From: Acidobacteriota bacterium | GTDB lineage: Bacteria; Acidobacteriota; Terriglobia; Acidiferrales; UBA7541 | Reading direction: 5' to 3' | DNA length: 64,000 nucleotides | NCBI GenBank assembly: GCA_003154775.1 | Contig: PMES01000072.1 | Location: 1-64,000 of the forward strand | Made by a program: the position numbers and the translations under genes | In this document: piece after piece, positions 58,564 to 63,664 of the stretch | Position numbering within the stretch: position 1 is the stretch's first letter | Layout: each line of letters begins with the position of its first letter | The notes under the pieces: generated by a model | Seen by the model: the letters and a program-made list of their open reading frames with translations, nothing else | The model's database searches: none | Told to the model about the DNA's origin: nothing

Positions 58564-61344
58564 TCAACTGCAACCGCTCGAACTGCCGCAGTTCTCGCAC
58601 TTGTAGCACGCTCCGTTCGGCACCATCAGCATGCCGCACTCGGAGCAGGTTGGCGCGCCCTCGTGCGCGTCGCGCGGCGAGTAGCTCATCGGCTCGCTCG
58701 TCCGCGGCGCCGCCGCTGTCCCCGCTGCAACGGAATTGTGCAATCCACCAAAACCTACTTTGTCCCCTATCGTCGTTCCGTTCAGCTTCAGATAATCCGA
58801 CGAAATGAACTTTCCGCCCAGCCAACGCGCGATGTAGTCCAGCACCGACGTGGCGAACCGGATGTTCGGATTCGCCGAGATGCCGCTCGGTTCAAACCGC
58901 GTATTCACCAGCTTGTCCACGAATACCTTCAGCGGCACGCCGTATTGCAAGCCCAGCGAAATCGTCAACGCCAATCCATCCATCACGCCCGATAGCGTCG
59001 AGCCTTCCTTGGCCATCTTGATGAAGAGTTCACCCGCACGCTTGTCGGGATACATTCCCACGGTAATGTACCCTTCGTGGCCGCCCACGCTGAACTTGTG
59101 CGTCACGGAGTCGCGTTCCACGGGCATCTTTTCCCGCTGCATCCGCGCAAACAGCTCGCGTTGTTCCGGTTCCACCACTTCCACCTTCTTTTCTTCCTTC
59201 TTCCCTGCGGCGCTGAGCGGCTGCGACCTCTTGGAATTGTCTCGGTAAATCGCCACGGACTTCAGCCCCAGCTTCCACGATTCAATATAAGCCTTCATGA
59301 TGTCTTCGAGCGTAGATTCTTCCGGCATATTGATCGTCTTGCTGATCGCGCCCGAAAGGAACGGTTGCGCCGCCGCCATCATCTTCACGTGGCCCGTCCA
59401 CGCGATCGAACGCCCACCGCCGGCCGGCGCCAGCGAGCAATCGAACACCGGCACGTGCTCTTCCTTCAAGTACGGCGCCCCGTCAATCTTCCCGTTTTTA
59501 TCAATGTGGCTCACGATTTCGCTGGTCTGTTCCGGCGTGTACCCCAGCCTCATCAGCGCCTCGGGCACCGTGTTGTTCACGATCTTGATCACGCCGCCGC
59601 CCACCAGCTTTTTCATCTTCACCAGCGCCAGGTCCGGCTCGATTCCTGTCGTGTCGCAGTCCATCATGAAACCGATCGTGCCCGTCGGCGCCAGCACCGT
59701 CACCTGCGAGTTCTTGTAGCCATGCTTCTCGCCCAGTTCCAGCGCCGCGTCCCATGCGTCCTGCGCGCCCATGTACAACTCCGCCTGCACGTGGTCCGGC
59801 TTGATCCCGCGCATCGCCTCCCGGTGCATCCGGATCACTTCCAGCATCGGTTCCCGGTTCTCCACGTAGCCTGGAAACGCTCCCATTCTTTCCGCCACGC
59901 GCGCCGACTGCGCGTACGCCTCGCCGCACATCAGCGCGGTCACCGCCGCCGCCACGTCGCGTCCCTCATCCGAGTCGTATGGGAGCGCCATGGACATCAG
60001 CAGCGCTCCCAAATTCGCGTACCCTAGCCCCAGCGGCCGGAAGTCATGCGAATTGTCCTCAATCTTTTTTGTCGGGTAGCTGGCGTTGTCCACCAGGATT
60101 TCCTGCGCCGTGATGGTCACGTCCACCGCCTGCCGGAACGCTTCCACGTCAAACTGCCCGTTCCCCGCCTTGTACTTCATCAGATTCAGCGAAGCCAGGT
60201 TGCACGCCGTGTCGTCCAGGAACATGTACTCGCTGCAGGGATTGCTGGCATTAATCCGCGCCGTATTCTTGCACGTGTGCCAGCGGTTCACCGTCGTGTC
60301 GTATTGCATCCCCGGGTCGCCGCAGTGCCACGTGGAATCCGCAATCTTGCACAGCAGCTCCCTGGCGCTGTACTTTTCGTTCGGCTGCCCGTCGGTGACG
60401 TTCTTCGTCCACCAGTCGCGGTCCTCTTCCACCGCGCGCATGAATTCATCCGTTACGCGCACCGAGTGGTTGGCGTTCTGGAAGAAAATCGAGCTGTACG
60501 CTTCGCCGTCGATCGCGCTGTTATACCCCTGCTCGATCAGCACGTGCGCCTTCTTCTCTTCTTTCACTTTGCACTCGATGAATTCCATGATGTCCGGGTG
60601 GTCCACGTTCAGGATTACCATCTTCGCCGCTCGCCGCGTCTTCCCCCCGCTCTTGATTACGCCCGCGAACGCGTCAAATCCCTTCATGAAGCTCACCGGT
60701 CCCGACGCAATCCCCCCGCCGGAAAGCGCTTCCTTGCTCCCGCGCAACGCCGAGAAATTCGTGCCCGTTCCCGAGCCCCACTTGAACAGCATCCCCTCGG
60801 TCCGCGTCAATCCCATGATCGATTCCATGTCGTCGTGCACGGAGTTGATGAAGCACGCCGAGCACTGCGGCTTCGCCTGCACGCCTACGTTGAACCACAC
60901 CGGCGAATTGAAGCTCATCTTCTGCTCGACCAGCAGGTGCGTCAGCTCGTCCCGGAACGCGTCGCGCGACGCCGTGTCCGCAAAATACCCCCCTTGTTCG
61001 CCCCACCGCACCACCGTCTTCACCACGCGGCTGATCAGTTGCCGCGCCGAGCTTTCCCGCTCCGGCGTCCCATGCTTCCCATGGAAATACTTGCTGGCCA
61101 CGATGTTCGTCGCCGTCTGCGACCAGCCCTTCGGCACCTCGACGTCTTCCTGCTTGAAGATCGCCACGCCTTTCTCGTTGCCGATCAGCGCCGTGCGCTT
61201 CTCCCATTCCACGTTGTCGAACGGGGCAGTCCTTCCGTCGGTGAAGTAACGCTCAAACCTCAAGCCGCTCTTCGTGCCTGCGCTCTTCGTCGCGCTCGCC
61301 GTTTCCACCGCTTTGCCATTTAATGCTGGCTTCACCGTTGCCAT
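58564..61344 (-). CDS. nrdJ: Adenosylcobalamin-dependent (class II) ribonucleotide reductase
   Basis: A 926-residue enzyme that makes deoxyribonucleotides with an adenosylcobalamin-derived radical. Motifs: MSFNSPVWFNVGVQ with QCSACFINSV, GSGTGTNFSALRGSKE, GGIASGPVSFMKGFDAF, ILNVDHPDIMEFIECK, NPCSEYMFLDDTACNLASLNL (catalytic Cys and Glu), and TGTIGFMMDCDTTGIEP. The C-terminus is a zinc ribbon: CSECGMLMVPNGACYKCENCG. The start is supported by GGGGAGGA 7 bp upstream. The leader can hide that ribosome binding site. No class I or III nrd genes are in the window. CobO at 34.7 kb supplies the cofactor. Confidence 0.96.
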   Translation of the reverse strand: MATVKPALNGKAVETASATKSAGTKSGLRFERYFTDGRTAPFDNVEWEKRTALIGNEKGVAIFKQEDVEVPKGWSQTATNIVASKYFHGKHGTPERESSARQLISRVVKTVVRWGEQGGYFADTASRDAFRDELTHLLVEQKMSFNSPVWFNVGVQAKPQCSACFINSVHDDMESIMGLTRTEGMLFKWGSGTGTNFSALRGSKEALSGGGIASGPVSFMKGFDAFAGVIKSGGKTRRAAKMVILNVDHPDIMEFIECKVKEEKKAHVLIEQGYNSAIDGEAYSSIFFQNANHSVRVTDEFMRAVEEDRDWWTKNVTDGQPNEKYSARELLCKIADSTWHCGDPGMQYDTTVNRWHTCKNTARINASNPCSEYMFLDDTACNLASLNLMKYKAGNGQFDVEAFRQAVDVTITAQEILVDNASYPTKKIEDNSHDFRPLGLGYANLGALLMSMALPYDSDEGRDVAAAVTALMCGEAYAQSARVAERMGAFPGYVENREPMLEVIRMHREAMRGIKPDHVQAELYMGAQDAWDAALELGEKHGYKNSQVTVLAPTGTIGFMMDCDTTGIEPDLALVKMKKLVGGGVIKIVNNTVPEALMRLGYTPEQTSEIVSHIDKNGKIDGAPYLKEEHVPVFDCSLAPAGGGRSIAWTGHVKMMAAAQPFLSGAISKTINMPEESTLEDIMKAYIESWKLGLKSVAIYRDNSKRSQPLSAAGKKEEKKVEVVEPEQRELFARMQREKMPVERDSVTHKFSVGGHEGYITVGMYPDKRAGELFIKMAKEGSTLSGVMDGLALTISLGLQYGVPLKVFVDKLVNTRFEPSGISANPNIRFATSVLDYIARWLGGKFISSDYLKLNGTTIGDKVGFGGLHNSVAAGTAAAPRTSEPMSYSPRDAHEGAPTCSECGMLMVPNGACYKCENCGSSSGCS

Positions 61345-61696
61345 CCAAGTTCCTCCCCGCTGCAGGTTCCCGTGTCTCAGCGGGGAACCCTTCTATTTTA
61401 CTCCCCTGTTCGACGGGGCGTCGCGCGCCACTTCCGTGGTCGCGCCACTCAATTCCAAGTTTCGTGGAAGACGCTGCCTGGGAAAAACATAAAAAAGCGA
61501 ATGCGCTGCCGGGTGCCGGTGTTTTCCACACCGCCGAACACCTCACCCCGCGCCTACCGAACTGCGCGGAGCGTTCTCTTCGCGCTCGTTGTTTTACGGT
61601 GATCCCGGGCTGGTTTCGTGGGTCAATTGCCGGACCAAGGCATATCCCCGACTCTGGTCCGTCTGGCGCTTCCACGTCCCCCGAATCTGGAAGTGC
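61345..61696 (-). promoter_or_regulatory. Long structured leader of nrdJ with alternative pairings around the ribosome binding site
   Basis: About 350 nt separate the predicted promoter from the nrdJ ATG, with no gene. Near the ATG, mRNA segment 1 (GGTTCCCCGCTG, plus coordinates 61378-61389) can pair with segment 2 (GGGAACC, 61365-61371; 7 bp) or with segment 3 (CAGCGGGGA, 61354-61362; 9 bp). Segment 3 contains the start of the Shine-Dalgarno. Farther upstream are CTTCCA/TGGAAG (61669-61693), a perfect 7-bp CGGACCA/TGGTCCG stem (61631-61661), a 5-bp stem at 61569-61587, and a 6-bp stem at 61518-61542 that competes with GGTG/CACC. I do not recognise the cobalamin-riboswitch core. Confidence 0.5.
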
Positions 61697-61725
61697 AGTA
61701 TTGTCCCGCGCGCGGGTGGTGTCAA
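61697..61725 (-). promoter_or_regulatory. Predicted sigma70 promoter of nrdJ
   Basis: On the minus strand TTGACA (61720-61725) is followed, after exactly 17 bp, by AATACT (61697-61702). The -35 is perfect and the -10 has 4 of 6 matches. About 40 bp upstream lies CACAAGATATAGG, similar to half of an NrdR box, and GTTATCCAGA, one mismatch from a DnaA box. Confidence 0.55.
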
Positions 61726-61858
61726 GAGAAAATCGCTAAATCTGGATAACTTTTTCTTTACATGCCTATATCTTGTGGTGAGGTTCCCTGCGTGGCCTTC
61801 TCATTTTCTTCTTCTTCCGCCACTTTCTTTTCCCTAAACTCTTTCCGTGCAGCTCTCT

Positions 61859-63540: not shown

Positions 63541-63578
63541 GTCATTCCGAACGGAGTCTGCGCAGTGAGGAATCTCTC
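63541..63578. repeat. GTCATTCCGA-family dispersed repeat
   Basis: GTCATTCCGAACGGAGTCTG followed by CGCAGTGAGGAATCTCTC. It agrees with the copy at 55805-55835 in about 25 of 31 positions. The octanucleotide array begins two bases later. Confidence 0.6.
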
Positions 63579-63579
63579 T

Positions 63580-63659
63580 GCCTCATTGCCTCATTGCCTC
63601 TTTGCCTCTTTGCCTCATTGCCTCTTTGCCTCATTGCCTCATTGCCTCATTGCCTCTTC
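63580..63659. repeat. Octanucleotide tandem repeat, ten GCCTC(A/T)TT units
   Basis: Ten consecutive 8-bp units, six GCCTCATT and three GCCTCTTT in mixed order plus a last GCCTCTTC. It lies between the kinase gene and a DNA methyltransferase, ending 5 bp before a TTGACA. It is upstream of, not inside, the methyltransferase frame, which has a stop codon at 63696. Confidence 0.85.
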
Positions 63660-63664
63660 CGACC

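Follow-up and report, generated by a model that had tools for sequence, protein, structure and literature searches.

A conserved structured RNA and a pair of mutually exclusive hairpins upstream of nrdJ, the gene of a class II ribonucleotide reductase

The window (the whole 64-kb stretch of DNA that we analysed) comes from a soil acidobacterium, whose named relatives are Terriglobia and Candidatus Acidiferrales metagenome bins, and carries an nrdJ gene whose ATG lies at 61344 on the minus strand; the features of its upstream region are collected in Table 1. We located nrdJ in 136 of 151 relatives' genomes and compared nrdJ upstream regions from 34 close relatives and from about 55 genomes at a greater distance; the genus of the source genome, here called g1, comprises 36 genomes. 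Since the class I small subunit (NrdB) was not detected in 35 of these 36 genomes, and NrdD in none of the 36, nrdJ is the sole ribonucleotide reductase (RNR) gene detected in nearly all g1 congeners; these bacteria apparently depend on one adenosylcobalamin (AdoCbl)-dependent enzyme for all of their DNA precursors. The single congener with NrdB (G007:C28:9791-13407) has neither a clear nrdJ nor the upstream RNA R1 described below; a strong cobalamin riboswitch lies on that contig, in the orientation of NrdB and 2.5 kb upstream of it. We found no description of an nrdJ leader of the present type in the open-licence literature.

Table 1. Features at the nrdJ locus (positions in the window).
Feature	Position	Strand	Basis or remarks
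nrdJ, class II adenosylcobalamin-dependent ribonucleotide reductase, 926 aa	58564..61344	(-)	NF005122, TIGR02504 NrdJ_Z, PF02867, PF08471
Shine-Dalgarno GGGGAGGA of nrdJ	61351..61358	(-)	sequence; GCGCGGAGG-type SD kept in relatives
Stem A, 3′ arm CAGCGGGGAG	61353..61362	(-)	overlaps the SD; in relatives, co-evolves with the opposite arm
Stem A, 5′ arm TTCCCCGCTG	61378..61387	(-)	
Stem B, 3′ arm GGGAACC	61364..61370	(-)	
Stem B, 5′ arm GGTTCCC	61383..61389	(-)	common to stem A; GGG/CCC of B nearly invariant though unused in A
TAAAAT, -10-like element of the proposed proximal promoter P2	61395..61400	(-)	TAnnnT in nearly all family members; putative promoter
Hairpin C, CCCC..GGGG	61403..61418	(-)	directly 5′ of the -10-like element; arms co-vary in permutation test
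T6 run	61491..61496	(-)	borders the 3′ end of R1; relatives have their terminator near this site
R1, conserved structured RNA of ~200 nt	61495..61694	(-)	alignment A1, covariance model R1, no Rfam match
R1 helix 2, 3′ arm GGTCCG	61631..61636	(-)	
R1 helix 2, 5′ arm CGGACC	61656..61661	(-)	all 6 pairs with changes on both sides
Promoter P1, TTGACA-17-AATACT	61697..61725	(-)	sole promoter-like match in the region (expected number 0.2); the whole family keeps TTGACA and a -10; putative promoter
NrdR-box-like element 2 (TCCAGATTTAGCG)	61734..61746	(-)	kept as ACCACATTTTGCG in the genus; putative assignment
NrdR-box-like element 1 ACCACAAGATATAGGC	61764..61779	(-)	kept as ACCACTACAAATAGAC in the genus; sole exact match in the genome

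Three sequence blocks on the minus strand 5′ of the nrdJ ATG, GGTTCCCCGCTG (61389-61378), GGGAACC (61370-61364), and CAGCGGGGA (61362-61354), had been named in the original prediction, and all are present exactly as it described them. The first block can pair either with the third, which overlaps the Shine-Dalgarno sequence (SD), forming stem A, or with the second, forming stem B; since the same 5′ arm is used by both, the two stems exclude each other, as had been proposed. Watson-Crick stems of at least 9 bp occurred in 0.12% of 20,000 dinucleotide shuffles of the 51-nt leader, and such a stem plus a competing stem of at least 7 bp in none of the 20,000; among 9,136 overlapping 51-nt segments of the 64-kb window, 24 have a stem of at least 9 bp and 2 have a competing pair (the leader itself possibly being among them). 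The hairpins are real, not a product of chance. The local fold (101 nt) is only mildly unusual (z = -1.34), so the case for the hairpins rests on the comparison of relatives.

In 31 leaders, a 5′ arm (of the GGGUUCCCC-CCGCG type) has two possible partners, an inner arm (GGGAACCC) that completes stem B and an SD arm (CGCGGAGGRAC) that completes stem A, and one arm is common to both pairings in all leaders examined. The SD-blocking stem that had been predicted exists, but its length is not 9 bp throughout: in relatives it extends further, with GUUCC/GGAAC outside and CCGCG/CGCGG inside, so that the SD sits within the stem. Covariation in related leaders, which the original prediction had proposed to look for, is found in stem A, whose arms change together among the 31 leaders. 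For example, the usual arms are CCGCGC/GCGCGG and GTTCC/GGAAC; compensated arms are found in G014 (GCUCC/GGAGC together with CCGUGC/GCACGG), in G005 (CCGCAA/UUGCGG), in G026 (UUCGAG/CUUGGA), and in G012 and its neighbours (GUCCC/GGGAC). Because the loops differ in length, pairs cannot be counted reliably in the MAFFT alignment of the SD region, and we used alignment-free tests instead. In a permutation test over the 31 leaders, stem A duplexes between an arm and its own partner (-18.07 kcal/mol) are 2.1 kcal/mol more stable than those between swapped partners (-15.99 kcal/mol; z = -5.5, p < 5e-5); a control with the SD arm reversed is flat (z = +0.35), and the same swap test gave no signal of co-evolution between the SD arm and the inner arm. 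Since the relatives are not independent of one another, we also counted independent contrasts on a tree built from the sequence outside the arms: eight favour the own partner and one the swap (sign p = 0.02), with flat controls. Sequence comparison thus supports a stem A that is conserved, co-evolves, and is predicted to hide the SD. That these inverted repeats are instead DNA operators, or chance products of GC-rich DNA with no role as RNA, is very improbable: the region is indeed GC-rich and hairpin C (see below) would overlap the expected position of a -35 element, but the arms change together while the sequence drifts, unlike an operator, such stems are rare in shuffles, and register-destroying controls are flat.

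The opposition of an SD-blocking and an SD-exposing stem, also part of the original prediction, holds for the blocking side, where stem A co-evolves and contains the SD, but the covariation of the exposing stem B is weak (permutation z = -2.4, p = 0.011; independent contrasts 4 to 6, not significant). The bases that only B uses (the 5′ GGG and the inner CCC) are nearly invariant; because the contrasts are 4 to 6, it is this near-invariance of the GGG/CCC ends, and not covariation, that supports B, which appears to be conserved. Stem A is lower in energy than stem B in 25 of the 31 leaders (mean -3.0 kcal/mol), while six do not favour A, and the equilibrium accessibility of the SD is at most 0.26 in 24 of the 31. 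When four leaders were followed length by length along their minimum-energy structures (a thermodynamic calculation, not a kinetic simulation), B appeared first, at lengths of about 24-36 nt (in G012, to 39 nt), and A supplanted it at about 36-42 nt, as the SD arm emerged. With B predicted to fold first and A later, the resting state would therefore hide the SD. We doubt that A and B form no switch at all, with a GC-rich 5′ hairpin setting a low constant rate of translation or protecting the 5′ end of the mRNA; this would fit the dominance of A at equilibrium in most leaders and the lack of significant independent contrasts for B, but leaves B-only bases that are nearly invariant and not needed by A, and a single arm common to both pairings in every leader examined.

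The best conserved stretch among the relatives is not the hairpins but 61701-61644, right behind the putative promoter P1. The 300 nt upstream of the hairpins, which the original prediction had called structured and devoid of the core of a cobalamin riboswitch, fold better than shuffles (z = -2.97), have no match to an Rfam family, and contain the covarying RNA that we call R1. An alignment of 30 sequences of about 200 nt (A1) supports five helices with 29 pairs. RNAalifold gave a poor consensus on the raw MAFFT alignment of R1, so the helices were set by hand from column statistics and then tested: 12 pairs are changed on both sides, compared to 4.9 in shuffles (none of 500 shuffles reached as high), and pairing drops from 88% to 46% or less when the partners are slid out of register. 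A possible pseudoknot between the 5′ motif and the loop of helix 2 (GAUUC/GAGUC) was also considered; it looked unsupported by eye, as position 2 of the loop varies to C and U. On this comparative evidence R1 is a structure that is conserved and covaries, and it belongs to the 5′ leaders of a single type of gene; it is more striking than the hairpin pair.

Searched with the covariance model of R1, each of the 30 genomes that supplied its training sequences yields a single strong copy. Genomes not used for training add weaker matches: three at nrdJ, in G037 (35 bits, E = 4e-7), G034, and G064, and one displaced from it, in G047. Among the 32 g1 genomes with a clear nrdJ, 30 have a strong R1; the other two are G034, whose R1 is weak, and G027, whose contig stops close to nrdJ. 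Neither a clear nrdJ nor R1 was found in G003, G007, G022, and G030. Every R1 of the genus accompanies nrdJ and stands immediately before the gene, and no strong copy was found elsewhere in the class sample. The sister genera keep the promoter and the 5′ motif CCAGAYTCGGGGGA, with the rest of R1 diverged, and in one of them (g4) the stem before the U-run covaries.

We also compared R1 with known RNA families, and it lies outside Rfam. A scan of our leader and of eight relatives' leaders against Rfam 15 gave chance matches only (such as CRISPR-DR32, at 20 bits against a cut-off of 48, and eukaryotic RNAs). The cobalamin riboswitch (RF00174) was rejected as the identity of the leader, with no match at E < 5 in our leader and none in the eight relatives, although it is present in all 36 g1 genomes (twice in the source genome), never at nrdJ. 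The nrdJ RNA motif (RF03034) was rejected as well: none of the 36 genomes has a match over the cut-off of 40.3 bits, the best one (23 bits) lies elsewhere, and among the weak matches listed none is at an nrdJ leader.

A -10-like element, located between R1 and the hairpins and immediately preceding the latter, is present in nearly every leader of the genus, where it stands 45-53 nt ahead of the ATG, as well as in most sister genera. It reads TAAAAT, TAAACT, TAGACT, or TAAGAT in the genus and two near genera, and also TATAAT, TACAAT, TATACT, or TAGAAT in sister genera; its constant T1, A2, and T6 follow the pattern of a -10 element, so we propose a proximal promoter, P2, at this position. We did not find a recognisable -35 element for P2. 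The arms of the adjacent hairpin C co-vary in the permutation test (z = -4.2, p = 5e-5, with a flat control), and independent contrasts are 7 to 3, not significant; hairpin C, if it is an RNA hairpin, implies read-through from P1. A pairing of hairpin C with the SD arm or with the 5′ arm was tried and rejected, as neither combination gave a signal of co-evolution. A terminator-like hairpin (at least -7 kcal/mol) followed by a run of at least five Ts comes after R1 in 25 of 34 close relatives, a count made with a crude hairpin finder; in the source genome, no strict terminator was found on the minus strand in this region, and no antiterminator pairing was found for R1. Separately, nine g4 genomes (L073, L076, L083, L085, L089, L090, L093, L094, and L095) have a conserved palindrome upstream of nrdJ, GTGTATC-N3-GATACAC with small variations, which in many g4 genomes lies between the terminator-like site and P2 and is a possible operator.

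These intervening elements bear on the claim of the original prediction that the hairpins are the output module of the upstream RNA. If so, the hairpin pair would be an expression platform, and a ligand (B12 or a nucleotide) would decide which of A and B forms; in favour, the same strand does carry a structured, covarying RNA upstream, and an alternative pair that hides the SD is the usual output of translational riboswitches (PMC7266159). We nevertheless consider this unlikely: the -10-like element adjoins the hairpins and, in most congeners, a terminator also intervenes, R1 ends ~105 nt before the hairpins, which are self-contained, and hairpin C showed no co-evolving pairing with the hairpin pair. 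We are probably dealing with two modules, the upstream RNA and the hairpins, each adjacent to its own putative promoter, and not with the sensor and the output of one riboswitch.

Upstream of P1 there are two conserved AT-rich box-like elements, 33 bp apart. NrdR boxes flank RNR promoters elsewhere (PMC4409342), and NrdR (TIGR00244) is found in 33 of the 36 congeners, with the source genome's copy on C101. Control of nrdJ by NrdR is plausible from these sequences but not proven, because element 1 has a single exact match in the genome, at nrdJ, but its two-mismatch matches are no commoner than those of the reversed pattern. Two other repeats were seen in this part of the window: a palindrome, CCCGCGCGCGGG, at 61705-61716, exactly between the -35 and -10 of P1, is found in the source genome and its nearest relative only, and a tandem array of ~10-bp units (TTGCCTCAT / TTGCCTCTT) lies at 63570-63660, behind a Ser/Thr kinase gene.

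With a putative promoter of its own, a length of ~200-230 nt, and a terminator in most congeners, R1 might be taken for a stand-alone small RNA that merely adjoins nrdJ, the latter being driven by P2; moreover, one sister genome (G047) has the whole cassette about 1 kb from nrdJ, followed by tRNA-Asn. We think this improbable, since in the genus R1 is found nowhere but directly upstream of nrdJ and the NrdR-box-like elements at P1 point to RNR control; in addition, the displaced G047 cassette still has P2 and the SD hairpin, and because of this it looks like a broken-off leader. The complete cassette in this genome (L234, G047:C69:10700-12400, minus strand) consists of an NrdR-box-like element, P1, the CCAGATTCGGGGGA motif, a T-run, GGTAAAATAGAC, and the SD hairpin; nrdJ itself has another promoter there, with the NrdR-box-like ACACTACCGCTATATGTTGTGG, and another SD hairpin pair.

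Overall, we lean, with somewhat more belief than doubt, towards a control region of two modules: P1 with NrdR, R1, and the terminator, and a separate promoter-proximal translational gate that switches from B to A. Its computed part comprises the existence, conservation, and co-evolution of stem A, the covariation of R1, its co-occurrence with nrdJ, and the predicted folding order; the promoters, termination, switching in the cell, and any ligand are the part that we infer. In the first module, P1, with the NrdR-box-like operators upstream, would start a transcript that begins with R1 and that, in most congeners, would meet an intrinsic terminator after R1; R1 would most likely act in cis, as an orphan sensor or attenuator of transcription from P1. 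In the second, located immediately before the gene, the -10-like element of P2 would be followed by the hairpin pair: hairpin B would form first during transcription and leave the SD free, and the longer stem A would replace it once the SD arm had been made, hiding the SD. The resting mRNA would then be poorly translated unless B were held by something or a ribosome arrived early. A more ambitious version, which we put forward as a tentative idea with the balance tilted against it, has R1 as a new class of riboswitch that senses a deoxynucleotide, the ATP/dATP balance, or AdoCbl and ends the transcripts from P1, and a second, self-timed RNA switch that gates translation from P2; if true, three layers (NrdR, an RNA attenuator, and the SD gate) would act on one essential gene, nrdJ. 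The conserved RNA before nrdJ, which matches none of the Rfam families, offers a concrete candidate for control of dNTP supply at the RNA level; its ligand can be tested directly, and the SD hairpin pair offers mutations with effects that can be predicted beforehand.

Several known systems resemble parts of this region. The cobalamin riboswitch (RF00174) is similar in being a large cis-acting RNA that accompanies B12-related and RNR genes; Cutibacterium acnes uses it to control its other RNR operons, nrdDG and nrdAB, but not nrdRJ (PMC3848588). RF03034 is likewise a conserved RNA that precedes class II RNR genes, nrdJ of Streptomyces lividans among them (PMC8079986), but it is a model of 80 positions, whereas R1 is ~200 nt long with a different sequence. 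The nrdRJ operon of C. acnes has two promoters, one of them with paired nrd boxes (PMC3848588), and the putative boxes at P1 would parallel this arrangement; here, in contrast, a structured RNA and a terminator lie between the two proposed promoters, and the putative box sequence is divergent. Similar to the platform of translational riboswitches (PMC7266159), the nrdJ leader would form two exclusive helices, one of which hides the SD, but its hairpins are self-contained, with no joined aptamer, and apparently sit next to their own -10 element; the hairpin pair may thus be a device that depends on the order of folding rather than one driven by a ligand.
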